From the NCBI RefSeq assembly GCF_004217415.1, contig NZ_SHLI01000001.1, positions 558,001 to 622,000 on the forward strand: a stretch of DNA of 64,000 nucleotides, written 5' to 3'. The notes beneath the pieces are model-generated. The model was given only the letters and a program-made list of their open reading frames with translations. It was not told the DNA's origin and did no database searches. Source of the DNA: Spiribacter vilamensis. Its GTDB lineage: Bacteria; Pseudomonadota; Gammaproteobacteria; Nitrococcales; Nitrococcaceae. Position numbers and translations under genes: made by a program. Positions 2,606 to 41,589 of the stretch are shown one piece after another. How positions within the stretch are numbered: position 1 is the first letter of the stretch; every line of letters begins with the position of its first letter.

Positions 2606-2676
2606 CCTGGTCTCCACTGATCTATAAAATCCCAGTGTAGCAATCCATCCGTAGACGGTTATAACACCCGAGCAGT

Positions 2677-2730
2677 CTTATATTTCACAATCGAATATAA
2701 GAATATTTGATAATTTCTTCTAGATATAAT
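2677..2730 (+). promoter_or_regulatory. AT-rich dyad and probable promoter of the rhodanese operon
   Basis: A perfect inverted repeat, CTTATATT (2677-2684) and AATATAAG (2694-2701), separated by 9 bases, lies in a strongly AT-rich stretch of otherwise GC-rich DNA. A TATAAT hexamer follows at 2725-2730, about 40 bp before the chosen start codon. The arrangement fits an operator and a -10 box. I found no convincing -35 at normal spacing. ArsR-type sulfide sensors such as BigR are known to bind AT-rich dyads upstream of rhodanese/YeeE-type genes. Assigning one here is inference, and no regulator gene is adjacent. Confidence 0.45.
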
Positions 2731-2770
2731 GAACTATTCGGGTAATACCACTGCTAAGCGGAGCTCAATC

Positions 2771-4968: not shown

Positions 4969-4978
4969 GGAAGCCGGA

Positions 4979-5176
4979 ATGACAATCCAGCGCGACTATA
5001 GCCGCATTAGAGTTCTGGCGGTCCTCCTCGGCCTGCTGGTGTTGATTCTTGCCGATCACTTCAATTCGGCGACTTTCGCCCTGAACAGCGGCCAGGGCGG
5101 CGTGGCGACCAGCTATTCCCAGCTTGATAGCGGGGCATGCGCCCCTTGTGGCGCACCCTGTCCGTCCGAGGATTGA
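4979..5176 (+). CDS. 65-residue membrane peptide with C-terminal Cys cluster
   Basis: ATG 4979 is preceded by GAGGAAG at good spacing and lies 10 bp after the permease stop. The product has a short basic N terminus, one hydrophobic helix (about residues 11-26, VLAVLLGLLVLILA), a polar segment, and ends in ACAPCGAPCPSED, giving three cysteines spaced CxxCxxxC. The topology would place the Cys tail in the periplasm if the N terminus is cytoplasmic. I do not recognise a family. The position and cysteines suggest a partner in sulfur relay or redox handling with the rhodanese and permease, which is inference. Confidence 0.68.
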   Translation: MTIQRDYSRIRVLAVLLGLLVLILADHFNSATFALNSGQGGVATSYSQLDSGACAPCGAPCPSED

Positions 5177-5219
5177 ACCGAGTACACTGAGGGCTGGGAA
5201 TATCACCCGGAGAAGGCCA

Positions 5220-21555: not shown

Positions 21556-21681
21556 GGGTGAGAGGTTAGCAGGCGGTGGAGCCACGCAGGCAGGTCAGAT
21601 CGTCGAGATTGAAAGGTTGGTCGGAGTGGGTCTAGCTTATGGCTTGTCAATCGCCGATCGTCGGAAAAAGTCTTGAAGATA

Positions 21682-21864
21682 ATGCGATCAAATCGCACCG
21701 CTGCAGGGTTCACACTGATCGAGCTGGTTATCGTTCTGGTCGTGCTCGGGACGCTCGTGGCGATTGCAGTGCCTCGACTCCAGGGTATCGGTCATCAGGC
21801 CGAGGTCGTCGCCAGATCGGCGAGAAACCGATACAGCCGATCGTCATCGGACAGGTCACCGTAG
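21682..21864 (+). pseudogene. Truncated type IV pilin/pseudopilin gene
   Basis: From ATG 21682 the frame encodes GFTLIELVIVLVVLGTLVAIAVPRL, in pieces GFTLIEL and the hydrophobic helix, preceded by a short basic leader: an unmistakable prepilin peptidase site and pilin N-terminal helix. After about IGHQAEVVA the frame continues into sequence antisense to the KaiB-like gene and stops at 21864. A real pilin has 120-180 residues, so about 35-45 codons of a former gene remain. The kaiB 3' end at 21795 sits at or close to the break. Confidence 0.75.
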
Positions 21865-22109
21865 AGCAGCGAGCCACCGTGTTCGTCGTCGGTTTTGAGC
21901 AACGAGGGCGTGGCAAACACCGAGTAGGTCAACCCTTCCTGCGGTTGCTGCAGCAGGTCGATCTCGTAGGGCGTCAGGTCGTCACGGCCAATCTCCTCGA
22001 GCATCCTCGCCAGGTTTGCACGCGCACGCTGTGTTCGCGGTGCATTGCCCGTCACGAATAGAATCAGTCGTGGCATACGGGATTCCTGTACCGACGAATC
22101 GTTAGTCAT
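21795..22109 (-). CDS. kaiB: KaiB-like thioredoxin-fold protein
   Basis: 104 residues, the KaiB length. The motif order matches KaiB: LILFVTGNAPRTQRARANL, YEIDLLQQPQEGL, FATPSLLK and LYGDLSDDDRLYRFL. In cyanobacteria KaiB switches fold and binds KaiC to time its phosphorylation cycle. In proteobacteria without KaiA, KaiB-KaiC pairs have been linked to stress or timing functions. The start overlaps the kaiC stop in ATGA, so the two are translated together. An alternative start is the internal Met12. Confidence 0.9.
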   Translation of the reverse strand: MTNDSSVQESRMPRLILFVTGNAPRTQRARANLARMLEEIGRDDLTPYEIDLLQQPQEGLTYSVFATPSLLKTDDEHGGSLLYGDLSDDDRLYRFLADLATTSA

Positions 22110-23806
22110 GATTGATCTCCATCGTTCCGGTCCTGGACCTCGTCGTTGGCGGTCGGGTTATCCCGATCGGGGTCCCTCTGCTGCCTGATCTCCCCGCGAG
22201 TTTCCTCATCCAGGCGACTGGTCTCGGTATGTTCCTTCTGCTCAAGCTCCATGATGGCCTCCAGACGGCGGCGCTCCTTCTCTGCCTGGGCGATCTGCTC
22301 CTCGAGGTCGGTGCGGCGTTGCTCCCATTCCAGCGATCGCCGTCGTGCGGCGGCCGCGTCCTCGAGCTCGCGGGTGACCCGCGCGGTTCCCATTAACACC
22401 TCGCTGCCATTCTCGTAGATATCGGCCAGATCCGGGCCGCTTTCGCCGATGAGGAGCTCGCGCTGCTGGTTTGAATGCCCGGTTCCGCGGGATTTGACGA
22501 TGGAAAGGGAGCGGTTCCGCTCGCCGGCACGAACGTTATAGTCGAGGACGATCCAGCTGTCGGCCAGCGTCGAGACTTGTCCCTGTGTCGCTTCACCTTC
22601 CGGGTCTTCTTCACCGCTCAGCGAAGTGATGATGGTGGTGATGCCACGCCGCCGCACCAGGTCGAGGAGTTGCTCGGTGGCCATATTGGCGCCCTCGGTG
22701 GCGCTTGCCTTGAGCATGGCGGAAATCGGATCAATCACCAGGCAATGCGGCTCGAACGTATCGAGCAGCCGCCGGATAGTCAGGAAATGCTCGGTGACCC
22801 GCGCGGCATAGGCCGAAAGCGTTCGAAAACATACCCAGCCGGCCTCGATCGGCTCGCGCAGGTTGATACCGACGGATTCGAGGTTGCGGACATACGGACC
22901 CTCGAGTTCATCGAAGCTGATATACAGCGTCCGCTCACCCCGTGCGGCCGCTGCCTCCGCGAAGGCACCTGCCAGCGTGCTTTTGGCGGTTCCCGGCCGC
23001 CCGGAGATCAACAGGCTCGATCCACGATAGATCCCGCCCCCCAATAGGGTGTCCAGGCGTTCGACGCCCAGGCTCAGTCGCTCGTTGGTGGCCTCGACAT
23101 CCGCTCTTTCGTCCGCCCCGTGGTAGGGGAGTGTGATGCCGTGGCGGTCGATCAGCATCGGCATCTCGTCAGCGGTATGATCGGAACCCCGATATTTGGC
23201 GATACGCAGCGAGCGGTTGAGCTGCTGGTTGACGATCTGTGCGCTAAGCACCAGTGATGCCGAGAGGAGGAATTCAACGCCTTCGAGATGGGCGGGGGCT
23301 GTGCTGTCCCGGGTGGCCTTACCGGTGAGCAGCAGGGTCCAGCCATACTGCTCGCAGGCCTCCTCCACCCGCCGAATCTGGTTGATGGCCGCCTTGTGGT
23401 CGGGTTGATACTGCAGTAGCTGATCGATGCCATCGAAAACGATCCAGAGCGCCCCCACCTGAGTGGCTGCCGCCGCCACGACCGAAAGCAGGCCGTCGAG
23501 ATCGAAATTCCCGGCCGACTCGCTGTCAATCGGGGGGCGGGCGTCGATGATCTGCAGCCGATCAGACTCGAGTAATGACTGGCCCCAACTAAACGACGCC
23601 GCATCGCGCCGGATCTGCGCGGGTGATTCCTCGAACGAGACAAACACCGCTCCCTCGCCACGCTCGATCGAATGAGCCAGCACCTGGAGCGCCAGCACGG
23701 TCTTGCCGGCCGCGGCCTCGCCCAGTACAAGCGTCGCCTGCCCCGTGGGTAGCCCGCCGTTAGTGACCCGGTCCAGGTCGGCGATGCCTGTTCTGCGTTT
23801 CTCCAA
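22106..23806 (-). CDS. kaiC: KaiC-like double-domain ATPase
   Basis: 566 residues with two RecA-like domains. Domain 1: Walker A GEAAAGKT at 29-36 and FEESP carrying the catalytic Glu pair. Domain 2: GRPGTAKST near 268-276, FDELEG (first Glu is Asp), and Walker B CLVIDPISAML. The segment QVSTLADSW aligns with the KaiC autophosphorylation region, with Ser412-Thr413 where KaiC has its phosphorylated Ser-Thr pair. About 80 residues beyond the clock protein form a charged coiled coil. The start is TTG 23806, five bases after GGAGG. No kaiA gene is present. Confidence 0.92.
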   Translation of the reverse strand: MEKRRTGIADLDRVTNGGLPTGQATLVLGEAAAGKTVLALQVLAHSIERGEGAVFVSFEESPAQIRRDAASFSWGQSLLESDRLQIIDARPPIDSESAGNFDLDGLLSVVAAAATQVGALWIVFDGIDQLLQYQPDHKAAINQIRRVEEACEQYGWTLLLTGKATRDSTAPAHLEGVEFLLSASLVLSAQIVNQQLNRSLRIAKYRGSDHTADEMPMLIDRHGITLPYHGADERADVEATNERLSLGVERLDTLLGGGIYRGSSLLISGRPGTAKSTLAGAFAEAAAARGERTLYISFDELEGPYVRNLESVGINLREPIEAGWVCFRTLSAYAARVTEHFLTIRRLLDTFEPHCLVIDPISAMLKASATEGANMATEQLLDLVRRRGITTIITSLSGEEDPEGEATQGQVSTLADSWIVLDYNVRAGERNRSLSIVKSRGTGHSNQQRELLIGESGPDLADIYENGSEVLMGTARVTRELEDAAAARRRSLEWEQRRTDLEEQIAQAEKERRRLEAIMELEQKEHTETSRLDEETRGEIRQQRDPDRDNPTANDEVQDRNDGDQS

Positions 23807-23842
23807 AATGTCCTCCGCTCTATTGATCGCCAGTGAATGGCG

Positions 23843-25933
23843 CTATTCGATCTGGTCAGCCGTCAGGGGGAGCTGGCTACCGCGCTCCAGCAGCCACCGA
23901 AAGTCCTCCGCCTCCAGTGGAAAGCTGTAGTAGAAGCCCTGGCCGAGCCGAATCCCCATATCCAACAGTGTGTCGCGCACGGTAGTGGACTCGATCCCCT
24001 CGGCAATAATCTCGGCATCGAGAGCACTGGCAAGCATCTTCACCGCCTCAACAATGTTGCGACTGAAGTCGTCGTTCATCAAATGAGTGACAAACCCCTG
24101 GTCGATTTTGATCTCATCGAACGGGTACTGCTGAAGATAGAGCAGCGAGGAATAGCCGGTGCCGAAATCATCCAGCGAGAGGCGCACATTCATAGCTCGT
24201 AGCTCACGCATCTGCCGCAACAGATACGCCGACTCCTGGGCAAAGACACTCTCCGTGATCTCCAGGGAGAGCTGCTCGGGCGCTATGCCCGTCTCTTCGA
24301 GTATTCTGTGGACGGTATGCGGGAAGCTGCCGGAGCGGAACTGCACGAGCGAGACGTTGACCGCAACACGCACGACATCGAGGCCCTCGTTCTGCCAGCT
24401 CCGTAGGTGCTCGCAGGCGCACCGGACGGCCCATTCGCCGATCGGTCCGATCAACTGACTCTGCTCGGCGATGGGGATAAAAACGCCGGGCGAGATGAGC
24501 CCCCGCTCCGGGTGATTCCAGCGCAGCAGCGCCTCGGCCGAGACAAGATGCCCGGTGGATAGATCCACCTTGGGCTGGAAATGGAGCTCGAGCTGATTGT
24601 CCTGTAGCGCCGTGCGCAGCTCACGGGTTAGATCAACACGTGCGCGCGCCTCCTGCTCGAGACGGTCCGTATAGGCCACCCATGGCAGGTTCGAGTCGGC
24701 CCGATGCTGGAACAATGCCCGTTCGGCCTCGCGAAGCAGCGTGTCCGCCGGTCTTGTGCCGTGGTTTAGCCGGGTATAGCCGACACGTATGGCGATACCG
24801 ATGGCTACGCCATCGAGATCGAATGGACGGGAGAGCTGATCGACGATCGCCTCGAGCCGTGTCTGAATCGGCTCATCGGGATCCGGAGCCAGAAAGAGGG
24901 TGCACTCGTCGCCCCCGATTCGACCGGCGAGTCCCGGTCCGCTGGCGGTTTGCAGCAGTCGCTTACTGAACTCGATGAGCAGTCGATCACCGCCCTCGTA
25001 GCCGTAGGCGTCGTTGATATCCCGCAGACCGATCACGTCGACCATCACCACCATGGCCTCGCTATGCCAGCCTTCCCTGTCGACCCACTCCTGAAGCGCC
25101 TGGCTGAAACCGTTGCGCGTGTAAAGCCCCGTCAGCGAGTCCTCGAATGCCAATCGCTCGAGATCGCTTTCCGTTGTCCGAAGGGCGGTCGTATCCTGTT
25201 TAATCGCGGCGTAGTTGACGACCTTCCCATCGTCGTCCCGCAGGGGGGCGATCAGCGTGTATTCGTGGTAAAGGCTGCCATCCCTGCGCCGGTTCTCGAG
25301 CTCACCGATCCACGTTTGCCCGCCCTCGATGGTCTCCCAGAGATTGCGATAGACATCGTCCGGCGTGTTGCCGCTCTTGAGTACGGCGGACGTATTGCCG
25401 ATCAGCTCGTCGCGGGAATAGCCCGAGATCTTCTCAAGTGCCGGATTCACATACTCGATACGACCCTGCAGATCAGTGATCGCGATCGAGGAGGGGCTCA
25501 GGTGCGCGATGGACATCATCTTCTGTAACTCGCGCTCACACTCGCGTCGATGGGTGATGTCGGCAATCACGATCCCGATCTCGCGTTGCCCCAATTCCGA
25601 GTGCATCAGGGGAATATAACGGACCTCGAGATCGCGCTCCCCCATAACGGCGCTCTGGCGCTCGATCTCATAGCACTGGGGCTGGCCGTCGAGGCACCTG
25701 TTCAGGCGCGGCCTTGTGACGCTTGCGAAGTGCTCATCGCCAACGACCCTGCGCACGCTGACCCCCACGAGGCTGTCGGGAGATGGCGCATGCAGGCGCT
25801 GATAGGCCGCATTGACCCAGCGGTAGCGGTAGTCGGCGTCGACAATGGCGCAGAGGTTATCGCTTGCCTCCAGCAGTGTCTGGAAGCTCGATGGATCGGG
25901 CATGTGATTATCGCTAGCGGCTTCCTGAGTCAT
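23843..25933 (-). CDS. PAS-PAS-GGDEF-EAL c-di-GMP signalling protein
   Basis: 696 residues, cytosolic. Two PAS domains occupy about 15-130 and 140-260 (SIAITDLQGRIEYVNPALE). The GGDEF domain has GGDEC near residue 338 and no RxxD site, so cyclase activity is possible but atypical. The EAL domain is intact: EALLRW near 465, NVSLVQF, EITES, DDFGTGYSSL near 586, KIDQGFV, AEGIE and a C-terminal QGFYYSFP. Net phosphodiesterase activity is likely. Its stop is 36 bp before kaiC on the same strand, suggesting one transcription unit. No transmembrane helix or receiver domain is seen. Confidence 0.93.
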   Translation of the reverse strand: MTQEAASDNHMPDPSSFQTLLEASDNLCAIVDADYRYRWVNAAYQRLHAPSPDSLVGVSVRRVVGDEHFASVTRPRLNRCLDGQPQCYEIERQSAVMGERDLEVRYIPLMHSELGQREIGIVIADITHRRECERELQKMMSIAHLSPSSIAITDLQGRIEYVNPALEKISGYSRDELIGNTSAVLKSGNTPDDVYRNLWETIEGGQTWIGELENRRRDGSLYHEYTLIAPLRDDDGKVVNYAAIKQDTTALRTTESDLERLAFEDSLTGLYTRNGFSQALQEWVDREGWHSEAMVVMVDVIGLRDINDAYGYEGGDRLLIEFSKRLLQTASGPGLAGRIGGDECTLFLAPDPDEPIQTRLEAIVDQLSRPFDLDGVAIGIAIRVGYTRLNHGTRPADTLLREAERALFQHRADSNLPWVAYTDRLEQEARARVDLTRELRTALQDNQLELHFQPKVDLSTGHLVSAEALLRWNHPERGLISPGVFIPIAEQSQLIGPIGEWAVRCACEHLRSWQNEGLDVVRVAVNVSLVQFRSGSFPHTVHRILEETGIAPEQLSLEITESVFAQESAYLLRQMRELRAMNVRLSLDDFGTGYSSLLYLQQYPFDEIKIDQGFVTHLMNDDFSRNIVEAVKMLASALDAEIIAEGIESTTVRDTLLDMGIRLGQGFYYSFPLEAEDFRWLLERGSQLPLTADQIE

Positions 25934-26053
25934 TGCACTGGTTGATGCGCATCATTAATCAATCGGATACCCGTTAGGATACGCCGATCAAGAGGACGGC
26001 GCCCAATCCGCTCCGGTCCCGGCGCGGCCGCGGGGTTGTACCGATCAAAAAAA

Positions 26054-26072
26054 TTGTTCTACAGTTAAACAA
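26054..26072. promoter_or_regulatory. Weak dyad upstream of the betaine-binding protein gene
   Basis: TTGTT (26054-26058) and AACAA (26068-26072) flank 9 bases in the only AT-rich stretch of the 268-bp gap between the PAS-GGDEF-EAL gene and the betaine-binding protein gene. It could be an operator, but the arms are short. Confidence 0.25.
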
Positions 26073-26201
26073 GGCTGGATGCCTGACCTGGCAGATTCCT
26101 CCCGCAAGACCGCTTGAACGCCGTCCCTCGCTACGAAGGCGCCAGCCCGCGATTTGGTACTGGAACGGCACGGTTGAGCGCGGAGAATATGGAGTAAACC
26201 T

Positions 26202-29306: not shown

Positions 29307-30836
29307 ATGGAACCGATAAGACGCCTGAACTACAGGGATAACCCGGCGTTACATCCGCTTGCCGAAACTGATCCGATTAGCACTGAGGTGAGGTTGCCGC
29401 CCATGCCGTTGACGGGTGGCAGTTCCTCTCCGCGCTCGGTGTTCCTCACCCATAGTCTGTCGCTGGGCGTTATTGCCGGCCTGCAGTGGATCATGCCGGC
29501 GCTGTTGACGGTCGTCCTGCTATACGGTCTCGCAGCCCTCGGCGGGGTAGCGATCGACAGCTACCTGACGGCCCTGGCGATTTTCGCGGCCGTTCTGACA
29601 ATCCTGCTGATTCGGGTGCTCCCCGCGAGTGGAACCCATACGGCTTCCACGTATTTTATCGACCAGACAGGGAGCCTCCTCGGGCGATGGCTGGCGGTGC
29701 TGGGCGCGCTGCTGGCGACCGCCTATCTGACCGGTTTCCAGGGATATTACCCGGCCGGTCTCGTCATTGCCTGGGCGGTGACAACGCCCGTCGCGGTGCT
29801 GGTGGTTCACTGGCTTCTGGACCGTCTCTTCCGCCATATCCTGGTGTCTCGGGAATTGGTGCGCACCAGCGTAATTGCCGGTGGGAACGAGCTGGGTCGC
29901 GGACTCGCCGAGCGGATCAGGCATCACCCGGAATACGGGTTTCGGGTGAGGGGTTTCTTTGACGATCGCAGCCTCGATCGACTTGGCGCCATGGACGACG
30001 TCGAGTATCTCGGTCGGCTTGATGAAGTCAGCCGTTACGTTCGTGAGTATTACATCGACGTCCTCTTCATCGTGCTGCCGATGCGCCACATCCGGCGCGT
30101 CATGAGGATGCTCGACGAGCTGAGTGACTCGACGGTCTCGATTTACTACGTCCCGGACTTCTTTGTCTGTGATCTGATTCAGTCGCATACGGCCGATGTC
30201 GCGGGCGTTCCGGTCGTCTCCATGTGGGAGACGCCTTTCTATGGTTATCGCGGCATTCTCAAGCGCGTCAGTGATGTCGCCCTGACACTGGCGGTCCTTG
30301 TGCCCGCGTTGCCAGTGATGGCGATTATCGCGCTTTTGATCAGGCTGACCTCCCGAGGGCCCGCGATCTTCCGCCAGCAACGCTACGGGCTCGATGGCAG
30401 GCCGATCACCGTCTATAAATTCCGGTCGATGCATGTGCTCGAAGATGGTGATCGGATTGTCCAGGCCTGGCGGGGTGATCCGCGCGTCACGTCGCTGGGC
30501 CGCTTCCTTCGAAAGACCTCGCTGGATGAATTGCCGCAGCTGTTCAATGTCCTCCAGGGGCGTATGAGCCTGGTTGGCCCACGGCCTCACGCCGTTGCGC
30601 ACAACGAGGAGTACCGCGGCCGGATCAAGGGCTACATGCTCCGTCACAAGGTGCTGCCGGGCATTACCGGACTGGCGCAGGTCAATGGCTGCCGGGGTGA
30701 AACCAGCGACCTGTCGGATATGGAGGAGCGCATACGCTACGACCTCGAGTATCTCAAGCAATGGACGCCCCTGCTCGATCTCAAGATCCTGTTCCGGACA
30801 GGCATCGAGGTCATCAAGGGTGACAGGGCGTACTGA
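29307..30836 (+). CDS. Polyprenyl-phosphate sugar-1-phosphate transferase (WcaJ/WbaP-like)
   Basis: 509 residues. N-terminal membrane helices (about 45-180), a CoA-binding-like Rossmann domain ([16 protein letters not shown]), one more helix near 330, then the catalytic domain: [46 protein letters not shown] and [11 protein letters not shown]. The family moves a hexose-1-phosphate from its UDP carrier to undecaprenyl phosphate, the first step in building the repeat unit at the inner membrane. It opens the EPS locus and is followed after 30 bp by prsR. Confidence 0.95.
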
Positions 30837-30866
30837 ACGCTCGGAGAGACCTATGAGAGAAAATCG

Positions 30867-32213
30867 GTGAGTGCCGAAAAGCTGCTGATCGTGGAAGACG
30901 ATCCCGGTCTGCAGCGGCAACTTCGCTGGTGTTTCGATCGCTACGAGATCCTCGTTGCCGAGGATCGGCCATCCGCCATGGCGCAACTCCGTCGCCACGA
31001 GCCCGCGGTGGTTCTGCAGGATCTGGGCCTGCCTCCGGATCCGGATGGCGTCTCCGAGGGTCTGGCAACCCTCAACGACATCATTGATGCCGCCCCCCAC
31101 ACCAAGGTGATCGTGGTCACCGGCAACGGTGATGCGACCAGCGCCGTGCGGTCGGTATCGCTGGGCGCCTATGACTTCTACGAAAAGCCGGTGGATACCG
31201 ATACGCTCAACCTGATCGTGGCAAGGGCCTTTCACCTCGCCGATCTGGAACGCCAGAACCGGGCGCTGATGCTGGCCCGGCAGACCCCCCTGGCGGGCGT
31301 TCTCGGTGCCAGCGAGTCCATGGCGAGGATTGCGCGGACGGTCGAAAAGGTCGCCCGAACGCGGGCCACGGTTTTGTTACAGGGGGAAACGGGGACCGGT
31401 AAGGAAGTCCTGGCGCGAGCGATCCACCGGCTGAGCGATCGCGCCAGTGAGAGTTTCGTTGCCATCAACTGCGCCGCGATCCCCGAGAATCTCCTCGAGA
31501 GTGAATTGTTCGGTTACGAGCGCGGGGCCTTTACCGGTGCCCAGAACCAGACCCGGGGCAAAATCGAGATGGCCGAGGGCGGCACGCTCTTTCTCGACGA
31601 AATCGGCGACATGCCCGTATCCCTCCAGAGCAAACTGTTGCGTTTTCTCCAGGAACGTGTGCTTGAGCGGGTCGGTGGCCGTCGGGAAATCCCCGTGGAC
31701 ACGCGCGTGGTCTGCGCGACACACCAGAATCTTCCCGGACAGATCGATTCGGGCAATTTTCGCCAGGATCTCTATTACCGGATCAGCGAGATCGTCATCG
31801 ACATCCCCCCGCTGCGGGCCCGGGAGAGTGACCCGTTGCTACTCGCCCGCCATTTCCTTGCCGCCGCCGCGCAGCAGCACGGTAGCGCCGTCCGCGGACT
31901 GACCGATGATGCGGCGGAGGCGGTATCGGCCTACGAATGGCCGGGCAACGTGCGCGAGCTCGAGCACAGGATCAATCGCGCCGTCATCATGGCAGAGGGG
32001 AAGCTGATCACCCTCGAGGACCTGGGCCTGGATCATTCCGGCGGTGAGCGCCCCAGTTTCAGCCTCCGCGAGGTTCGCGACCGGGCCGAAGAACGCGCCG
32101 TTCGCGAAGCGCTCGCACGCGCGACGGACAATGTCTCGAAGGCGGCCGATTTGCTAGGGGTATCCCGTCCGACATTGTATGACCTGATGAGAAAATTCGA
32201 CCTTAAATGCTGA
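30867..32213 (+). CDS. prsR: PrsR-type sigma-54-dependent response regulator of the exosortase/EPS system
   Basis: 448 residues from GTG 30867. Receiver domain 1-125 with acidic pocket EDD (10-12) and phospho-acceptor Asp52 (LQDLGLP). AAA+ domain with Walker A GETGTGKE near 173 and the sigma-54 contact loop GAFTGA near 220. C-terminal Fis-type helix-turn-helix (KAADLLGVSRPTLYDLMRKF). The overall make-up and the neighbouring prsT and prsK match the PEP-CTERM-box regulator. It should activate sigma-54 promoters of exosortase substrates or EPS genes on signal from PrsK. I found no clear -24/-12 site within the window. Confidence 0.92.
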   Translation: MSAEKLLIVEDDPGLQRQLRWCFDRYEILVAEDRPSAMAQLRRHEPAVVLQDLGLPPDPDGVSEGLATLNDIIDAAPHTKVIVVTGNGDATSAVRSVSLGAYDFYEKPVDTDTLNLIVARAFHLADLERQNRALMLARQTPLAGVLGASESMARIARTVEKVARTRATVLLQGETGTGKEVLARAIHRLSDRASESFVAINCAAIPENLLESELFGYERGAFTGAQNQTRGKIEMAEGGTLFLDEIGDMPVSLQSKLLRFLQERVLERVGGRREIPVDTRVVCATHQNLPGQIDSGNFRQDLYYRISEIVIDIPPLRARESDPLLLARHFLAAAAQQHGSAVRGLTDDAAEAVSAYEWPGNVRELEHRINRAVIMAEGKLITLEDLGLDHSGGERPSFSLREVRDRAEERAVREALARATDNVSKAADLLGVSRPTLYDLMRKFDLKC

Positions 32214-32244
32214 AAACATGCCCCCGGGGCAGGAGAGAGTAGCG

Positions 32245-34335
32245 ATGCGAATCGGATGGCGAAAAGGATTTGTTCTCCTGTCGGTCGCGTTACTGGCCGC
32301 ATGTACCGACACGGTGGATGACCTCAGGGGACAGGCCGTGGAGCTCCAGGCCGGGGGGCAGTATCAGGCCGCACTGGCACAGTATCGCAAGGTACTTGAA
32401 ACACAACCGGATGACCGCGAGGCGCGGCTCGGCGTAGCGGAAAACAACCTCTATCTGGGCGAATATGCCCGGGCCCTCGACGCGCTGCAACGCGCCGCAG
32501 CCCTTGGTGCCGAGGCCGATCGCCTCCAGCCCCTGCTCGCGGCCGCGCTCCTTGCCCAGAGGGATTACGAGGGAGTTATCGATCGTATCGCCGCGGACAG
32601 CGTCGCAGATCCGGCGGTCGCCGCCGAGCTGTTTGCGGCGCGGGCAACCGCCTATCTGGCGCAGGGCGAGAGTGCACGCGCCGAGGCGGCAGCGGAGGCG
32701 GCCATGGCGGCCAAGACGGATTCGGTACGTGCACTGACCGTGACCGGATGGGTCGCACTCGCGCAGGACGATCGCGCCCGCGCCCGCGACCATCTCGAGC
32801 GAGCCGTGGAGAGCGATGATCAGATCGCCGCGGCGCTTTTCACGCTCGCAGGCATGGCGGCGGAAGCCAATGAGATTGATCTGGCGATTGAGTACCTGGC
32901 CGAGGCTATTGAACAACCGGCAACGGATCGCTCGACCTCGATGCGTGAGCGATTCATGGCTCGGGGGCAGCGGATTGAACTGCTGTTGCAGGAGGATCGA
33001 GTCGCTGAGGCGTCCGAGGTCCTGGAGGTGATGCTTCGGCAGGGCGAGCGCCATCCCTACGCGAACTACGTGGCAGGGCTGGTCGCGGTGCGCGAGGGTC
33101 GGCTCGACGAGGCCGTCGAACGCCTCCAGACCACCCTCGCAGCGTCGTCTGGCGACGTCCGCGCCAAGGCCCTGATGGCGGCGGTTCGCATGGAGCAGGA
33201 TCAACCCGTTCAAGCGATCGGCCTGCTTCAGGATGTTCTCGCTGTTGCGCCGGATAATCGGCCCGCCCGCCTGAGACTGGTCGCGGCACTTCGCGAGACG
33301 GACGCCCGCGAACGGGCTGTCGAAGTGCTCATCGAGGGGGTGCGACTGGCCCGCAACGACCCGCGGGGACTGGCCTCGTTGCTGGCGGCCGCAGGCGATG
33401 ACATTGAAGCGGTTCTCGCCGGTGCCCAGCCCGTAGACGGTAATGATGGCGAGTCGGAGCAAACGCGCACAAGCCTTGCCCGGGCCCTTCTGCAATCCGG
33501 CAACGTTAATCCGGAGGTGGCGCTGGCAGCGGCTCGGCAACTTGCCGCCGATCATCCGGACAACATCAGCGCGCACAATCTGATAGGGGGGATCCACCTC
33601 TCGCAGGGGCGTCTCGAGGCGGCGCGAATGGCGTTCGAGCGCGCACGGGATATTGATCCGGCGAGCGCCGAAGTGCGTTTCAACCTCGGGTTCACCGCCG
33701 CCGCTGCGGGTGATCTGGATCAGGCCGCGCTGCATTTCCAGCGTGGCTTCGAGCGGGCCCCGGGCAATATCGCCCCTATCCTGCGGCTTGCCGAAATCCA
33801 GCGCGCGACCGGGAACGCCGAGGCGGCCGCGGCCACCTTCGAAAAGGCACTGGCGACCGGTGGTGAGAATGCCTCACTGTCCCTCGTCCCGCAGCGACTT
33901 GCCCTGGCGGCCTGGTACCTTGAGCAGGCGTCATTCGACGACGCGAGTCGCCATTACGAGGCGCTGGTAAGGCAGACCGATCGTGCGGTGCCGGGGGTGC
34001 TGAACAATCTCGCCTGGGTTTATCTGCAGACGGGCGATGAGCGGGCGCTCGCGACGGCGCAGGAGGCCCATGAACTGGCGCCGGACAATCCAGCGGTTCA
34101 GGACACGCTGGGCTGGATTCATTTCCGGCAGGGCCGTGTCGATGAAGCGGTAGCGCTTCTGTCCGAGGCGGCGGAGCAGGCAAGCGACGCGCCCGAAACG
34201 CTCTACCACCTCGGTGCCGCGCTGGCAGGGGCCGGCAACCCGGTCGATGCGCGGGTGAATCTGGAGCGGGCCCTGGAACTGGACGAGGACGCGGACTGGG
34301 CGGGGCAGGCTCGGCGACTTCTCGAGGCGCTTTGA
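32245..34335 (+). CDS. prsT: PrsT-type TPR lipoprotein of the exosortase system
   Basis: About 696 residues from ATG 32245 (GGAGAGAG upstream). The N terminus is a lipoprotein signal with lipobox LLAAC, so it is anchored to a membrane facing the periplasm. The remainder is a long series of tetratricopeptide repeats, for example AALAQYRKVLETQPDDREARLGVAE and QDTLGWIHFRQGRVDEAV in pieces. It sits between prsR and prsK as in known PEP-CTERM loci, where a TPR protein of this size is standard. The likely role is scaffolding of EPS or exosortase-substrate export. Confidence 0.9.
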   Translation: MRIGWRKGFVLLSVALLAACTDTVDDLRGQAVELQAGGQYQAALAQYRKVLETQPDDREARLGVAENNLYLGEYARALDALQRAAALGAEADRLQPLLAAALLAQRDYEGVIDRIAADSVADPAVAAELFAARATAYLAQGESARAEAAAEAAMAAKTDSVRALTVTGWVALAQDDRARARDHLERAVESDDQIAAALFTLAGMAAEANEIDLAIEYLAEAIEQPATDRSTSMRERFMARGQRIELLLQEDRVAEASEVLEVMLRQGERHPYANYVAGLVAVREGRLDEAVERLQTTLAASSGDVRAKALMAAVRMEQDQPVQAIGLLQDVLAVAPDNRPARLRLVAALRETDARERAVEVLIEGVRLARNDPRGLASLLAAAGDDIEAVLAGAQPVDGNDGESEQTRTSLARALLQSGNVNPEVALAAARQLAADHPDNISAHNLIGGIHLSQGRLEAARMAFERARDIDPASAEVRFNLGFTAAAAGDLDQAALHFQRGFERAPGNIAPILRLAEIQRATGNAEAAAATFEKALATGGENASLSLVPQRLALAAWYLEQASFDDASRHYEALVRQTDRAVPGVLNNLAWVYLQTGDERALATAQEAHELAPDNPAVQDTLGWIHFRQGRVDEAVALLSEAAEQASDAPETLYHLGAALAGAGNPVDARVNLERALELDEDADWAGQARRLLEAL

Positions 34336-34366
34336 ACCGGCCCGGCTCTGCATACAGGCACCGGTA

Positions 34367-36463
34367 GTGGCGTTGATCGGCTTTGCGAGCTATGCGGTGG
34401 CCGCGGTCGTTTTCGCCCTGGCGGCCCTCCTTTTGGTGCTGCACTGGCATAGCGATCTGCGCGGCGGGCTGCTGATTGCCGCCGTGAGTCTGACCGCGTT
34501 GTGGGGCGCAGTGCTCGCGTGGGGGGCGCTCAACCCCGGGGCAGTGGTCGTCGCTGAAGTCGCGGAGCTGTTGCGCTCGGGGGGGTGGCTGGTATTCATC
34601 AGCGCGCTGCTTGCCCCTGTCAGTCGTCTCAATGGCTGGCTGCGAGCGCTGTCAATCATGACGATTGCCCTTGTGGGGATAAGCCTGCTGTCGGTGTTGA
34701 TGCGACATGGCATGAACGGTCCGGTGTCGATGCAGGGGATCCCGGGTGATGATCTATCATTTGCCGTTCCGGCCCTCGCGCTGGCGGTGCTCGGGTTGAT
34801 TCTGCTCGAACAACTGCTGCGTAGTCTTCCCGCGGAAAACCGCGCATCAATCCGTTTTCTGTGCATCGGCGTCGGCATCATCCTCGCCTACGATGTCTAC
34901 CTCTACTCGTTTCGCTTGCTCTACCAGCAAATGCAGATTTCGGCCTGGGATGCCCGCGGTCTAGTCACCGCCCTTGCCGTGCCTATGATCCTGATCGCTG
35001 CACGGCGCAACCGCGAATGGGAGGTTCCAGTGTTCCTCTCCCGCGAAGTCGTGTTCCAGACGACAACGCTGTTGGCGGTGGGCGGCTATCTGCTGATGGT
35101 GGCGCTGGGCGGTTATTACGTCCGTGATTTCGGCGGGACCTGGGGAGCATTCGCGCAGATCGTGCTGGTGGCCGGCGCATTGATCGGCCTGCTGCTGTTG
35201 CTGGTATCGGAGCCCATCCGACGCCGGTTCCGGGTGTTGATCAACAAGCATTTCTTCACGCGCAAGTACGACTACCGCGAGGAATGGCTGCGACTGACCG
35301 AGCGCCTTGCCGAGGCGCAGGATGATCTAACGCCTTACGAGCGGGCCGTGCGGGTGGTGGCGGACGTTGTAGAGAGCCCTGCGGGGTTGCTCTGGCGTGA
35401 CGGAGACCAGGGGTTCGAGCTATCGGCCAGCTGGCGGATCGATCCGCCGGCCGAGGCGACCATTCCCCGGGATGCGTCCCTGGTCACCTTCCTCCGTGAC
35501 AGCGAGTGGATTGTCGACGTCGCGGAGCTGGATGCGATCCCCGCGCGCTATCGCGATATGCAACTCCCTGACTCCGTACGGCGCGTACCGGCAGCGTGGG
35601 CGATTGTGCCGTTGCTGTATCAGCAGACACTGACCGGCATTCTCCTGCTCACCCGCCCCCGTAGTGGCGGCGAGATCAAGTGGGAGGATCGCGACCTTCT
35701 CAAAACACTGGGCAAGCAGGTCGCGAGTTATCTCGGTCAGCACGAGAATGCCCAGGCCCTGGCACAGGCCCGCCAGTTCGAGGCATTCAACCAGCTCACC
35801 GCCTTTCTGATGCACGATCTCAAAAACCTCATCGCCCAGCAGTCACTGATTGTCCGCAACGCGGATCGGCACAAGCATAATCCGGCGTTCGTGGACGATG
35901 CCTTCGCGACCATCGGCGATTCAGTGAAGCGCATGGAACACATCCTCGAATACATGCAGCGCCGTAGAGTGAGTCACCTCAGCGAACAGGTGGATGTCCA
36001 TCATCTGCTTGTCGAAGCGGTCTCACGCTGTGCCGATCGCCGGCCCGAGCCGTCGCTTGAGCTCGACGTCCGCGGGGCGCATATCGACACCGATCGCGAG
36101 GCCTTCGCCATGGTGGTGATCCATCTGCTCCGCAACGCGCAGGACGCGACACCCGAGGAGGGCATGATCCTGCTTGCCGCTCGCGAGGAAGGCGGCCAGG
36201 TGACCCTCGAGGTCCGCGACAGCGGGTCGGGGATGTCGGAGGCATTTATCCGGGACGGGCTGTTCAAGCCGTTCCATACCACCAAGTCCACCAAGGGGAT
36301 GGGGATCGGTGCCCACCAGGTGCGGGAGTTCACGCAGCGTCACGGCGGTCAACTGACCGTGACCAGCCAGGTTGGCGAAGGCACGACTTTTCGCCTGACG
36401 CTCCCGACATCCGCCGTGGAGAGCCCCGACGACGAGGCGCGCGTATCAGGACAGGGCCTGTAG
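34367..36463 (+). CDS. prsK: PrsK-type membrane histidine kinase
   Basis: 698 residues from GTG 34367. About eight N-terminal transmembrane helices (1-285), a GAF-like domain (about 320-460), then dimerisation and ATPase domains: the phospho-His is near 483 in FLMHDLKNLIAQQS, N-box LLRNAQDATPEEG, G-boxes RDSGSGMS and TKSTKGMGIGAHQVREF. Presumed partner of PrsR. The GTG start has only a weak ribosome site, perhaps compensated by coupling. Its 3' end overlaps convergent rfbD by 18 bp. Confidence 0.92.
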   Translation: MALIGFASYAVAAVVFALAALLLVLHWHSDLRGGLLIAAVSLTALWGAVLAWGALNPGAVVVAEVAELLRSGGWLVFISALLAPVSRLNGWLRALSIMTIALVGISLLSVLMRHGMNGPVSMQGIPGDDLSFAVPALALAVLGLILLEQLLRSLPAENRASIRFLCIGVGIILAYDVYLYSFRLLYQQMQISAWDARGLVTALAVPMILIAARRNREWEVPVFLSREVVFQTTTLLAVGGYLLMVALGGYYVRDFGGTWGAFAQIVLVAGALIGLLLLLVSEPIRRRFRVLINKHFFTRKYDYREEWLRLTERLAEAQDDLTPYERAVRVVADVVESPAGLLWRDGDQGFELSASWRIDPPAEATIPRDASLVTFLRDSEWIVDVAELDAIPARYRDMQLPDSVRRVPAAWAIVPLLYQQTLTGILLLTRPRSGGEIKWEDRDLLKTLGKQVASYLGQHENAQALAQARQFEAFNQLTAFLMHDLKNLIAQQSLIVRNADRHKHNPAFVDDAFATIGDSVKRMEHILEYMQRRRVSHLSEQVDVHHLLVEAVSRCADRRPEPSLELDVRGAHIDTDREAFAMVVIHLLRNAQDATPEEGMILLAAREEGGQVTLEVRDSGSGMSEAFIRDGLFKPFHTTKSTKGMGIGAHQVREFTQRHGGQLTVTSQVGEGTTFRLTLPTSAVESPDDEARVSGQGL

Positions 36464-37309
36464 CGTCCGGGTCAGCCCGATTTCCCAGTCCGGTGAGTAG
36501 CCGGTCGCGGCGTTCAGTGCGGGACTGGGGGCGAGCACGGCGCGCAGGGGCCGCGTCGCCGGGGTCGGATAGCTTGCGGTAGCAATCGGCTCCACCGCGG
36601 GTGCCTGTTCCAGGAGCCCCCGTTGGGTGGCCTCGCGGAAGATCATGCCGGCAAACTCGTACCAGCTAACGATTCGACCGCCAACGGCATGGTAAATGCC
36701 CCAGGGGAGGCTCGGCTCCGCGATCGATGTCGCCAGGTGCCGGATAACCGTTGCGATATCCCCTGCATAAGTGGGGCGGCCGTACTGGTCCGAAACCACC
36801 TGCAGCGCGTCGCGCTCGGCGCCCACGCGCAGCATTGTCTTGACGAAATTGCTGCCGAACTCACTGAACACCCAGCTGACCCGCAGGATCCAGTGGCGCT
36901 CGCAGAGCGTGGTAACGGCGAGCTCACCGGCGAGTTTGGTCCGGCCGTAGGTGTTGACGGGACAGGTGCCGGCATCGGGACCGTACTCGGCCTCGGCACT
37001 GCCATCGAAGACATAGTCGGTAGAGATGTGGATCAGGGGGACGCCGAGCTGCTCCGCTACCCGGGCCAGCGCCGCCGGCCCCTCGGCATTGATCCGCCAG
37101 GCCGTCGCCGGCTCGCTTTCGGCGCCGTCCACGTCCGTATAGGCGGCCGCGTTGATGATCAGGGACGGGGCGAGTGCCTGAACCGCCGGCCCAATCGTCG
37201 CCGCCTCCGCCAGATCCAGATCGACCCGGCCGCGGAAGACCGCCGAGGGTATCTGCTCGCGAAGGTGAGAGGCGAGCTGGCCCGAGGCACCGATCACCAG
37301 GATCGTCAT
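36446..37309 (-). CDS. rfbD: dTDP-4-dehydrorhamnose reductase
   Basis: About 287 residues starting MTILVIGASGQLA, with NADPH loop GASGQLASHL, NAAAYTDVDGAE, ISTDYVFDG and the catalytic TYGRTKLAGE. It makes dTDP-L-rhamnose in the last step of the Rml pathway. The start overlaps the rfbC stop in ATGA. A longer upstream start would lie inside rfbC. The cytoplasmic product feeds rhamnosyltransferases of the locus. Confidence 0.94.
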   Translation of the reverse strand: MTILVIGASGQLASHLREQIPSAVFRGRVDLDLAEAATIGPAVQALAPSLIINAAAYTDVDGAESEPATAWRINAEGPAALARVAEQLGVPLIHISTDYVFDGSAEAEYGPDAGTCPVNTYGRTKLAGELAVTTLCERHWILRVSWVFSEFGSNFVKTMLRVGAERDALQVVSDQYGRPTYAGDIATVIRHLATSIAEPSLPWGIYHAVGGRIVSWYEFAGMIFREATQRGLLEQAPAVEPIATASYPTPATRPLRAVLAPSPALNAATGYSPDWEIGLTRTLQALS

Positions 37310-37848
37310 CGGTCGGCCTTGATCTGCGCGAGCGTCGGCCATGCCCTGTCCTTGTCCGAGAGGACCGGGTCTGCGAGCGGCCAGTCGATGCCGACGGCCG
37401 AGTCGTCCCAGACCAGGCCGACCTCGTCATCCGGCACGTAGTAATCGGTGCACTTGTACTCGAAATCCGCCACGTCGGAGAGCACAAGGAAGCCGTGGGC
37501 ATAGCCCGGCGGTATCCAGAGCTGGCGCTGGTTGTCGTCGGAAAGGACCGCGCCGGTCCAGACGCCGAAATACGGCGACGCGGGGTCGATATCCACGCTC
37601 ACATCGAAGACCTCGCCGCGGGCGACGCGCACGAGCTTGCCCTGGGGGTAACGATGCTGGGCATGGAGTCCGCGAAGTACGCCGCGGGGCGAGCGGGAGT
37701 GGTTGTCCTGGACAAAGGGGAGGGTGATGCCGGCCGCCTCGCGATAGCGCTGGGCCTGGAAAGTCTCGAGGAAGAAACCCCGGGGGTCGCGAAAGACATC
37801 GGGCTCGATCAGCATCACCCCCGGCAGGCGGAGCTCCGTGACGATCAT
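37306..37848 (-). CDS. rfbC: dTDP-4-dehydrorhamnose 3,5-epimerase
   Basis: About 180 residues, the usual size, starting MIVTELRLPGV. The cupin fold has FRDPRGFFLETFQAQRY, the catalytic His in LRGLHAQH, and IPPGYAHGFLVLS with DYYVPDDEVGLVWDD. An upstream in-frame extension would fall inside rfbA and has no support. It is joined to rfbA and rfbD by ATGA overlaps on both sides. Confidence 0.95.
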   Translation of the reverse strand: MIVTELRLPGVMLIEPDVFRDPRGFFLETFQAQRYREAAGITLPFVQDNHSRSPRGVLRGLHAQHRYPQGKLVRVARGEVFDVSVDIDPASPYFGVWTGAVLSDDNQRQLWIPPGYAHGFLVLSDVADFEYKCTDYYVPDDEVGLVWDDSAVGIDWPLADPVLSDKDRAWPTLAQIKADR

Positions 37849-38723
37849 GCCTCCCGCTCCAGCAGGTCCATCAGGTAGCTGCCATACCCGCTTTTGATCA
37901 GTGGCTGCGCCAGCCGCTCGAGCTGGAGGCTGTCGATCCAGCCCTCGTTCCACGCGACTTCTTCCGGGCAGCCGACCTTCAGACCCTGGCGTTTCTCGAG
38001 GGTCTGGATGAACTGCCCGGCATCGAGCAGCGAGTCGTGAGTGCCGGTATCGAGCCATGCCATACCGCGCGCCATTCGCTCGACATGCAGCGCATCGTCC
38101 GCCAGGTACTGATTGTTGAGATCGGTAATCTCGAGCTCGCCACGCTCGGAGGGTGTCAGCGTCCGGGCCCGCCTGGCGGCGTCGCCGTCGTAGAAATAGA
38201 GTCCGGTGACGGCGAAACGGCTGGATGGTCGGGATGGTTTTTCCTCGATGGCCAGGGCATGGCCGCGGGCATCGAAATCGACCACGCCGAAGGCCTGCGG
38301 GTTGACCACCGGATAGGCGAATACGGTGGCGCCATGCTCCCGCGCCGCTGCCGAGCGAAGGAGGCCGGTCAGGCCGCTGCCGAAGAACAGGTTATCGCCG
38401 AGTATCAGCGCACAGGGCTGTCCGGCGAGGAAATCCTCGCCGATGACGAGCGCCTGGGCCAGCCCTTCCGGCCGCGGCTGGATCGCGTACTCGATCTGCA
38501 TGCCCCACTGCGACCCGTCGCCGAGGATCTGCCGGAACCGGTCGATGTCGTCGGGGGTGGAGATCACCAGCACCTCGCGGATGCCGGTGAGCATGAGCGT
38601 GCTGAGCGGATAGTAGATCATGGGCTTGTCGTAGATCGGCAACAGCTGTTTACACACACCCAATGTCACCGGGTGCAGCCGGGTGCCGGCCCCGCCGGCG
38701 AGAATAATGCCGCGTCGTTTCAT
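37845..38723 (-). CDS. rfbA: Glucose-1-phosphate thymidylyltransferase
   Basis: 292 residues. GGAGTRLHPVTLGVCKQLLP is the nucleotide-binding signature, with KPMIYYPLSTLML, LGDNLFFG holding the metal-binding Asp, and a C-terminal YLMDLLERE helix. It makes dTDP-glucose from dTTP and glucose-1-phosphate. First gene of the rfbACD unit, divergent from the exosortase gene. The 4,6-dehydratase gene rfbB is absent from the window and must be elsewhere for the pathway to work. Confidence 0.96.
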   Translation of the reverse strand: MKRRGIILAGGAGTRLHPVTLGVCKQLLPIYDKPMIYYPLSTLMLTGIREVLVISTPDDIDRFRQILGDGSQWGMQIEYAIQPRPEGLAQALVIGEDFLAGQPCALILGDNLFFGSGLTGLLRSAAAREHGATVFAYPVVNPQAFGVVDFDARGHALAIEEKPSRPSSRFAVTGLYFYDGDAARRARTLTPSERGELEITDLNNQYLADDALHVERMARGMAWLDTGTHDSLLDAGQFIQTLEKRQGLKVGCPEEVAWNEGWIDSLQLERLAQPLIKSGYGSYLMDLLEREA

Positions 38724-38836
38724 CGCCCTGTCCGCTGGCCGTCGCTCGAAAAAATAGGTGATGCCAGTAATACCGCTTATTCCAATGAAAGGCTATCCAT
38801 AGTAGAAGAGAGGTTACCGATCATCAAAAGGAGCTG

Positions 38837-40411
38837 ATGAGATTGGTTAAAGCGGTCATGGCGGCGGAACGGGCCAATGCGCTATCGCGTTTTTTCAGGC
38901 GCGTAGTTGCCCATCTTTCATCTTACTGGGTCGCCTGGCTGGCTCTGGCGGTGACTGCCGTTGCGATGGCGGTCGGCCTCGAGACCGGATTCGAACGCCT
39001 CTACGAGCGCTGGCGGTTTTCCTACAACCACAGTTTTCTGGTCTTTCCCATGGCGGCGTGGCTGGCCTGGGTCATGCTGTCGCGGGTGCCCGTCACCCGC
39101 GTCGCTCCCTCGGTGGTCGGCATTGTCGGCCTTGCACTGTCTCTCGGGATCTACGCGCTGTTCGAGGCGCTCGATTTCACGCTGGGAATGCAGATGGCCG
39201 TGCCCCTGGTTGTATTCGCGGCGGTTGCCGGACTGCTCGGTCTCTCCGTCGCCGCCGTCATGATGGTGCCCGTCGGGTTTCTCTACTTCACGGTGCCCGT
39301 CTGGGACCTTTCCACCGGCATCCTCCAGGATATCTCGACGGCGATGGTCTCGGCGCTGCTTCGCCTGAGCGATGTCACCGCACATATCGATCTCTACTAC
39401 ATTACGATCCCTTCCGGGACTTTCGAGATCGAGAAGGGCTGTGCCGGACTGCAGTATGTCATCGTCGGGCTGATTCTCACCGTCTTCTACGCCATGGTCT
39501 GGCTCCAGCGCTGGCGGACACGCATCCTGCTCGTGGCGGTGGCCGTCGTATTCACCATGATCGCCAACTGGATCCGGATCTATACGTTGATCCTGATCGG
39601 TCACTGGTCGCAGATGCAGCACTACCTCATCCAGGTAAGCCACGATGAGTATGGCTGGCTGGTGTTCATCGTCGCCATGGCGCCCGTCCTGTGGCTTGCC
39701 CGTCGACTCGAGACGCGCGAGCCAGAGACCGCCATGCCGCGGGCAGAAAATCCACCCGCGCGCGCATCCGTGAAAGCCTTTGTCGTTGCAGGAGGGGTGG
39801 TTGCCGCCCTGACCGCCGCGCCGGCGCTGACGGATGCCGGGCCCGAGGCACCCCCGACACCACGCGACATAAGCGCGATCACGGCGCCGGGTGGAGAGTG
39901 GCATGAAAGTGCAGCAACGCCGGCCTGGTCACCGCAATTCCATGCCCCGCACATGCAGGCACGATCCGCATTCCGCGCGCCCGGGGAAAACCAGGTCGAT
40001 GTCTACATCGCGCGCTATCTTGGCAAGCAACCCGACTCCAAGCTGCTTGCGTCACGCAATGAACTCGCCCCGAACTGGCGGACATTGAGAAGCGAGATGC
40101 ACGAGATCGGCATCGGTAATGACCGGCGCGCGGTTCGGGCCATGCATCTCGAATCGAGGGGTGATCAGCGCCTGCTCTGGAGTTGGTATGTGATCGGCGG
40201 ATACTCAACGGGCGAGGCCGTCCGGGCGAAGATGCTCGAGATCCCCGCGCTGCTCGGGGGACGGCGCGATGGTGCGGTCATCGCGGTTTCCGCGGCCTGC
40301 GAAGGCGATTGCGACAACGCTAAGCGCAGTATGACAGGTTTTTTTGAAACACACGGTCAGCAGATCGAGGCAGTCGCCCGTGGCGCTGCCGATTCGGATG
40401 GGCGGATATGA
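38837..40411 (+). CDS. xrtA: Exosortase A fused to an EpsI-type domain
   Basis: 524 residues. About eight transmembrane helices (1-295) contain the exosortase triad: Cys202 in EKGCAGLQYV, Arg near 247 in NWIRIYTL, and His near 269 in VSHDEYGW. From about 305 a further helix is followed by a periplasmic EpsI/DUF3485-type domain (GWHES-like GGEWHESA, VDVYIARYLGKQ, VRAMHLES, LLWSWYVIGG). The enzyme cleaves PEP-CTERM tails and probably links the proteins to EPS. It is the landmark that defines the surrounding locus. It overlaps the aminotransferase gene by 4 bp. Confidence 0.93.
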   Translation: MRLVKAVMAAERANALSRFFRRVVAHLSSYWVAWLALAVTAVAMAVGLETGFERLYERWRFSYNHSFLVFPMAAWLAWVMLSRVPVTRVAPSVVGIVGLALSLGIYALFEALDFTLGMQMAVPLVVFAAVAGLLGLSVAAVMMVPVGFLYFTVPVWDLSTGILQDISTAMVSALLRLSDVTAHIDLYYITIPSGTFEIEKGCAGLQYVIVGLILTVFYAMVWLQRWRTRILLVAVAVVFTMIANWIRIYTLILIGHWSQMQHYLIQVSHDEYGWLVFIVAMAPVLWLARRLETREPETAMPRAENPPARASVKAFVVAGGVVAALTAAPALTDAGPEAPPTPRDISAITAPGGEWHESAATPAWSPQFHAPHMQARSAFRAPGENQVDVYIARYLGKQPDSKLLASRNELAPNWRTLRSEMHEIGIGNDRRAVRAMHLESRGDQRLLWSWYVIGGYSTGEAVRAKMLEIPALLGGRRDGAVIAVSAACEGDCDNAKRSMTGFFETHGQQIEAVARGAADSDGRI

Positions 40412-41583: not shown

Positions 41584-41589
41584 GCGGTC

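Follow-up and report, generated by a model that had tools for sequence, protein, structure and literature searches.

Known KaiBC Systems and the Spiribacter Locus

KaiBC systems without KaiA are best described from Rhodobacter sphaeroides. There, a C-terminal extension of KaiC joins two hexamers, the protein phosphorylates itself without KaiA, and the ATP/ADP ratio drives an hourglass timer (PMC10076222). The R. sphaeroides kaiBC operon also encodes a histidine kinase, as stated in PMC5520375, and according to the 2011 Ramlibacter genome paper almost every kaiC-kaiB cluster outside cyanobacteria is directly followed by a gene for a histidine kinase or a GGDEF/EAL protein (PMC3164672). Here we describe a kaiBC locus of the probably halophilic Spiribacter vilamensis, found in a stretch of 64,000 nucleotides (GCF_004217415.1, contig NZ_SHLI01000001.1, positions 558,001 to 622,000; hereafter the window, in whose numbering coordinates are given) of a 2.08 Mb genome in two contigs. 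Three tightly spaced, operon-like genes lie on the minus strand: a gene for a 696-aa PAS-PAS-GGDEF-EAL protein (23843..25933), a predicted phosphodiesterase of cyclic diguanosine monophosphate (c-di-GMP) by its open reading frame (ORF), domain searches and closest solved chains, then kaiC (22106..23806) and kaiB (21795..22109). The first two are 36 bp apart and the last two overlap by 4 bp; an earlier note on this DNA had given the same gene content, strand and spacings.

Like the R. sphaeroides hourglass, this system has no KaiA, its KaiC aligns along the C-terminal coiled coil, and its predicted structures find their best fold matches there (8fwi/8dba for KaiC, 8fwj for KaiB). The two differ in their partner, a GGDEF-EAL protein here and a histidine kinase there (PMC5520375), and in the active site of the second ATPase domain of KaiC. 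The cyanobacterial KaiABC-SasA clock has KaiB and KaiC homologues in common with our locus, for which there is no KaiA match and no SasA-like kinase was seen. The clusters of the Ramlibacter paper likewise link kaiBC to GGDEF/EAL genes, but that paper places the signalling gene immediately downstream (PMC3164672), whereas here it is the first gene, upstream of a KaiC from a separate branch, and belongs to an EAL clade of its own. Linkage of this kind had thus been described before, and the earlier note's impression that it is unusual has to yield to that 2011 statement. As far as our literature search shows, the novelty lies in the trio with its EAL gene upstream, in the EAL clade specific to it, in the KaiC branch whose second domain has an altered active site and in the opposite choice of partner in two KaiC branches. 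That search met a kaiBC-EAL operon only in PMC3164672 and mostly missed subscription papers as well as the 2014 Legionella kai operon paper, where an earlier description is possible.

We lean towards reading the trio as one unit, in which a KaiBC timer like that of R. sphaeroides, independent of KaiA, is joined to a dedicated c-di-GMP phosphodiesterase, probably as its output. This KaiC/EAL unit is predicted from sequence, with support from gene order, conservation, co-inheritance and fold-level matches. To our knowledge it is still open how a KaiBC system lacking KaiA and SasA transmits time; this compact trio, inherited together and present in a genome of 2 Mb, provides one answer that can be tested.

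Conservation of the Trio

Both kaiC and kaiB are present in 4 of the 14 genomes of the genus (4 of the 9 of high quality), and in all four the EAL gene stands directly upstream on the same strand, in the order EAL-kaiC-kaiB. The earlier note had asked whether the PAS-GGDEF-EAL/kaiC/kaiB order is conserved; it is, in every kaiC-bearing genome of the genus and in further families, so that the operon-like union of KaiBC with c-di-GMP turnover which that note proposed is borne out in relatives. Outside the genus (genomes are numbered G, loci L), the trio occurs in G015, G036, G040, G207, G192, G027, where the whole cassette is present twice, and G317, where both the EAL and the kaiC frame are fragmented. 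Twelve loci across four families retain the EAL neighbour while the flanking genes change. Within the genus the flanks are partly shared: a putative permease (PRK10621-like) recurs in L037-L039, and several more genes among L036, L037 and L038. Outside it, the flanks matched at 1e-15 in a gene for an NMT1-type binding protein (L101, L102, L103 and L170) and in GGDEF-type genes (L098, L101, L102, L103 and L169), in a comparison that did not include L171. Mere synteny was rejected as the cause of the trio. In the four loci with the NMT1-type periplasmic binding protein (assigned by Pfam for L101, by similarity for L102, L103 and L170), its gene overlaps the EAL gene by 4 bp.

Across the family, KaiC was found in 7 of 23 genomes at 1e-40; G015 has the trio, G014 a GGDEF-EAL protein encoded downstream, and G021 a REC-EAL protein with a divergent hybrid kinase nearby. 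When the family was searched with the EAL protein, the top five matches were the five upstream-linked proteins and the next an unlinked one (41% identical), while the downstream-linked protein of G014 ranked far lower (32%). KaiC was detected in 20 of 54 genomes of the order at 1e-50 and in 13 of 369 of the class sample at 1e-75. The four kaiBC genomes of the genus carry 9, 6, 4 and 6 EAL domains and the other ten 3, 2 and eight times 0, five of these ten being less than 90% complete. Thus kaiBC accompanies a rich c-di-GMP system in the genus, for which shared ancestry may be the cause.

Within the genus the whole trio evolves under purifying selection. Pairwise ratios of nonsynonymous to synonymous substitution rates (dN/dS) among the four genomes were 0.09-0.18 for EAL, 0.09-0.15 for KaiC and 0.08-0.36 for KaiB, with dS of 0.5-2.9 partly saturated and the mechanically called KaiB frames of G013 and G004 overlong. 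Domain matches, conservation and dN/dS together speak against chance ORFs, a reading that was rejected.

Co-Inheritance of the EAL Protein and KaiC

A tree of 62 EAL domains places 12 of the 13 upstream EALs of the KaiC branch to which our locus belongs, together with a second copy at L169, in one clade (support 98/94) that contains none of the 36 unlinked EALs. These unlinked EALs are part of those found in the family and genus searches; the trees were built without L140 and L141 (2 of 38 fetched unlinked stretches) and without a 166-aa EAL piece of L098. The thirteenth EAL of the branch (L176) falls outside the clade, as does the upstream EAL of L055, which shows that EAL linkage arose more than once. 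The KaiCs of the same 12 loci plus L173 also form one clade (100/98). KaiC and EAL distances are correlated over 11 of the 12 clade loci, the partial L171 being left out (r = 0.82; reached in 0 of 5000 label shuffles), a correlation that shared descent alone can produce.

A second EAL clade (99/93) unites five proteins encoded downstream of kaiC or kaiB (L053, L054, L113, L114, L179); at L179 the EAL gene, set off by a 371-bp gap and an intervening gene, was not counted as part of an operon. At L053 (positions 2597-5332), KaiB stands in one open frame with GGDEF-EAL, giving a 911-aa product with KaiB, GGDEF and EAL matches, a layout resembling that of SasA, which combines a KaiB-type domain with a kinase. 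The fusion arises by a 20-bp gap relative to L054, whose protein shows PAS and GAF domains. Coming from a single metagenome contig, it could be an error; yet the frame is open and the nearby differences are mostly single-base.

Two KaiC Branches With Different Partners

The first catalytic Glu of the second KaiC domain is replaced by Asp in 20 of 88 classifiable KaiC loci. In a tree of these 20 with 16 sequences chosen from the 68 Glu-Glu loci, a branch supported at 100/100 sets the Asp-Glu KaiCs apart; they also have an altered Walker A motif in that domain, its Lys being preceded by Ala or Ser, and 18 of the 20 keep Ser-Thr at the phosphosites. The partners encoded in the kaiC operon differ sharply. 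An EAL gene is present in 14 of 20 Asp-Glu loci vs 6 of 68 Glu-Glu loci, and a histidine kinase gene in none of 20 vs 33 of 68 (Fisher 1.4e-7 and 3.0e-5, values that overstate independence, the loci being kin). An operon here means genes on the same strand with gaps of up to 150 bp, on mechanically called ORFs that include some shadow ORFs, and the kinase counts are lower bounds obtained with a home-made profile. By set, the contig scan (54 loci) gave at least 31 operons with a histidine kinase and 5 with EAL, the order (25 loci) 0 and 12, and the further class loci (11) at least 2 and 4. KaiC counts omit L039 and L043 (duplicates of the window and of L098) and L095 and L117 (no full KaiC); L172, truncated where its contig stops, was left unclassified, and L093, with a partial KaiC, was counted but stands outside one of the KaiC trees.

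Genes within three places downstream of kaiC (e.g., L046, L054, L055, L100, L044) often encode an N-terminal motif G-x-V/I-D-A. We saw it in 28 of 35 downstream histidine kinases, 4 of 8 downstream EALs and 8 of 43 downstream genes of other kinds, the Rubrivivax loci L044 and L045 supplying two of these 8, and in none of 14 upstream EALs. This motif is perhaps a KaiBC-linked input module that shifted between outputs. At L044, the gene after kaiB encodes a Crp-type DNA-binding domain.

Features of the Three Proteins

KaiC (566 aa) matches PF06745 in two stretches (255.3 bits summed), the tandem ATPase domains CI and CII, followed by a C-terminal coiled coil. It falls below the NCBIfam equivalog cut-offs (PRK09302.1, 397.7 vs 408 bits; circ_KaiC, 222.1 vs 546.25), and by that standard it is a homologue, not an equivalog, of the circadian clock protein KaiC. 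The genome holds no second KaiC of comparable score. The best solved relative is R. sphaeroides KaiC (1.7e-79, residues 3-548), in an alignment that spans the coiled coil. In our model of the chain (predicted local distance difference test, pLDDT, 81.2; predicted template modelling score, pTM, 0.66), residues 474-543 (22178..22387, minus) form a single long helix equivalent to that coiled coil, and in the PDB the model is most similar to the dodecameric R. sphaeroides structures named above. The earlier note had seen this coiled coil and called it extra; it is present, as the known C-terminal extension of R. sphaeroides KaiC. By sequence and model, then, the protein resembles the KaiA-independent timer.

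The active sites of the two domains differ. CI has a canonical Walker A motif, GEAAAGKT (residues 29-36; 23699..23722, minus), and an intact Glu-Glu pair (SFEES). CII combines a variant Walker A, GRPGTAKS (residues 269-276; 22979..23002, minus), in which Ala274 replaces the last Gly, with an Asp299-Glu300 pair (SFDEL; 22907..22912, minus) where R. sphaeroides KaiC has Glu302-Glu303, and so departs from the canonical set on both counts. The claim that both Walker A motifs are kept therefore stands for CI and needs correction for CII. Cyanobacterial KaiC1-3 conserve GXXXXGKT and EE (PMC5520375), and in R. sphaeroides KaiC the replacement of both CII glutamates by Gln served to abolish hydrolysis in that domain (PMC10076222). 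At the phosphosites, Ser412-Thr413 (22568..22573, minus) align with Ser413-Ser414 of R. sphaeroides KaiC, whose phosphomimetic chain has Glu-Glu there, in agreement with the position that the earlier note had assigned them.

The EAL protein scores 229.5 bits for EAL, 85.0 for GGDEF and 105.4 for PAS_4, and among solved chains it comes closest to a "Motility regulator" (4rnh) and to DosP (9clo and others). The first PAS domain has no clear solved relative (best E 0.052). The second (residues 146-252; 25178..25498, minus) is most like the PAS domains of 3ewk (3.9e-37) and NifL (2gj3, 4.2e-20); we take 3ewk to be MmoS and both domains to bind flavin adenine dinucleotide. The GGDEF domain (residues 263-412; 24698..25147, minus) reads GGDEC: of the cyclase motif set (GG[DE]EF with FK/ND/GH) it retains GGDE, while the FK and GH positions are replaced and the RxxD inhibitory site is missing. 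The EAL domain (residues 437-670; 23924..24625, minus) has all seven inspected catalytic motifs intact (EALLRW, VNVS, EITES, DDFGTGYSS, KIDQGF, AEGIES, QGF). Read by the roles assigned to the GGDEF substrate-site and RxxD positions and to the seven EAL motifs, the GGDEF half is degenerate and probably not a cyclase. With the EAL site intact, the protein most likely acts, by analogy with known families, as a phosphodiesterase whose GGDEF domain is regulatory.

These features recur among its relatives: EAL motifs are intact and RxxD is absent in all 9 upstream-linked proteins examined, and the FK and GH positions are missing in all 11 clade members whose GGDEF domain was read (L171 is not among them), while the GGDEF domain of L176, outside the clade, looks canonical. 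Described GGDEF-EAL phosphodiesterases (4rnh, DosP, PA0861 in 5xgb) likewise have intact EAL motifs and sensors in front; the window protein differs from them in its linkage to kaiBC and in lacking the FK and GH positions.

KaiB (104 aa) is divergent, with a PF07689 match of 31.1 bits just above the cut-off of 27 and a circ_KaiB score (25.4) far under the NCBIfam cut-off of 145.3. Its model (single chain, pLDDT 78.6) has the order beta-alpha-beta-alpha-beta-beta-alpha of a thioredoxin-like, putatively fold-switched state, and the best matches are KaiC-bound and fold-switched KaiB structures, including 8fwj; this is one predicted state and not evidence of switching. kaiB itself is the only KaiB-family match in the genome, so no KaiB-domain (SasA-like) kinase was seen. 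KaiA gave no match in the genome at E <= 0.001, while the control genome of Synechococcus elongatus was positive. The gene run contains no kinase gene, and the earlier note was right that kaiA and an adjacent kinase such as SasA are missing.

A Proposed Mechanism and Its Alternatives

We propose that KaiC would assemble through its C-terminal coiled coil and, at high ATP, autophosphorylate at Ser412/Thr413. As ATP/ADP falls, fold-switched KaiB would bind KaiC and reset it. The state of KaiC/KaiB may then switch the PAS-PAS-GGDEF-EAL enzyme by direct contact, so that cellular c-di-GMP would track the timer, with a redox signal contributed by the second PAS domain. Physical contact, redox sensing and the timing itself are parts that we infer, as is the direction from timer to enzyme. 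Contact and co-regulation of KaiBC and the EAL protein are likely, and timer-to-enzyme is the more likely direction, because the enzyme is the part common to the linked proteins and the neighbours of kaiBC elsewhere are signalling enzymes. We put forward more tentatively that the separate KaiBC branch, with its Asp-Glu CII and Ala/Ser P-loop, could have dropped the histidine-kinase output, the c-di-GMP level becoming the hand of the clock through direct control of the phosphodiesterase. The timer could thereby determine the level of c-di-GMP and, through it, exopolysaccharide or growth on surfaces. The CII changes specific to the branch also provide a natural experiment on how much of the kinase site in KaiC is indispensable to a timer. 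A rhodopsin gene is present in 12 of the 14 genus genomes, which makes daily swings in ATP plausible.

Several observations weigh against this reading. Sensor domains suit an input as well as an output, and the CII active site deviates from those of known KaiC kinases. Beyond the kinship of the counted loci, six of the 20 Asp-Glu loci have no EAL gene in the operon (L044, L045, L099, L173, L174, L175); of these, the KaiC of L173 nests among EAL-linked KaiCs, and kaiC of L099 has as neighbours a gene for a REC-EAL protein and a divergent one for a hybrid kinase. L055 has a Glu-Glu KaiC and an upstream EAL from outside the clade. At L176 the upstream EAL is of another lineage and the KaiC phosphosites are gone (Ala-Asn), so phosphorylation is not always part of the system. 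The KaiC and EAL trees conflict on L098, and the bootstrap of the EAL tree is not fully settled. Intact motifs are usual among the 36 unlinked EALs too and therefore indicate competence only, and the unlinked sister L126 likewise has a degenerate GGDEF domain without FK and GH. Lastly, no PilZ domain was found in any of the 14 genus genomes.

Effectors with PilZ were accordingly set aside as the c-di-GMP output, and a flagellar output was set aside as well, with no flagellin match in any of the 14. The genus thus combines up to nine EAL domains per genome with neither a PilZ nor a flagellin match.

The EAL protein might instead be an input, its PAS domains sensing redox or a ligand. It would then set or reset the timer by an action on KaiC, either direct or by way of nucleotide products, with c-di-GMP secondary. 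The sensors preceding GGDEF-EAL vary among relatives, as expected of an input device (multiple PAS in L098 and L104, HAMP in L101, HAMP and PAS in L103, besides the NMT1-type protein encoded upstream in L101), and the likeness of the second PAS domain to those of 3ewk and NifL fits the same idea. In S. elongatus, the period became 0.6 h longer when a phosphodiesterase was expressed, while no consistent direct effect of c-di-GMP on KaiC was seen in vitro (PMC13001216); c-di-GMP and clocks can thus be linked, indirectly in that case. What the linked proteins have in common, however, is GGDEF-EAL, with EAL motifs intact in each of the upstream-linked proteins examined, a conservation that an input alone would not need, and we hold this alternative to be rather unlikely. 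It is also unlikely, and a little more so, that KaiC is a fast ATP-sensing switch or a scaffold for the phosphodiesterase and not a timer, its altered CII being unfit for slow phosphorylation cycles. Such a role would suit the branch-wide changes (Ala/Ser before the Walker A Lys, Asp for the first Glu), the effect of Gln at both CII glutamates in R. sphaeroides KaiC (PMC10076222), the EAL linkage of L176 despite the loss of both phosphosites, and the Ser-Ala of L175. Set against these are the retention of Ser-Thr in 18 of the 20 branch loci and the canonical CI of the window KaiC. P-loops of the form GxxGxAKS are, moreover, found in active ATPases such as MCM and MoxR.

That the genes are co-transcribed yet act independently seems improbable to us. 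The many EAL domains of the kaiBC genomes in the genus make a chance contact less improbable than elsewhere, and the EAL neighbour is missing in 6 of the 20 branch loci. But twelve loci in four families keep the EAL gene while their flanks change, EAL was recruited beside kaiBC more than once, and the entire cassette occurs twice in G027.

Expression Signals and Neighboring Genes

Co-transcription of the EAL gene, kaiC and kaiB would require a promoter in the divergent intergenic region (25934..26201, minus). A scan for sigma-70-like sites gave none there; the single site in all (1.3 expected) lies within the EAL gene. The intergenic alignment is conserved in 3 of the 4 genus genomes, and those three have a common divergent gene there. 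The kaiC start codon is TTG, preceded by GGAGGA.

Abutting the end of kaiB, a plus-strand frame (21679-21792) begins like a type IV pilin (MRSNRTAAGFTLIELVIVLVVLGTLVAIAVPRLQ...), enters kaiB and stops soon after; it looks like a truncated pilin gene, and a plain text search downstream of kaiB in four relatives returned no pilin-like motif. A stand-alone EAL protein (1048-1881, plus) is most like RimA (297.8 bits, under the 430 cut-off). An exopolysaccharide/PEP-CTERM cluster (29307-42774, plus) encodes a WcaJ-type transferase, PrsR, PrsT, PrsK, an exosortase and a glycosyltransferase; lying 3.4 kb from the kai operon, it is a possible c-di-GMP-controlled output.

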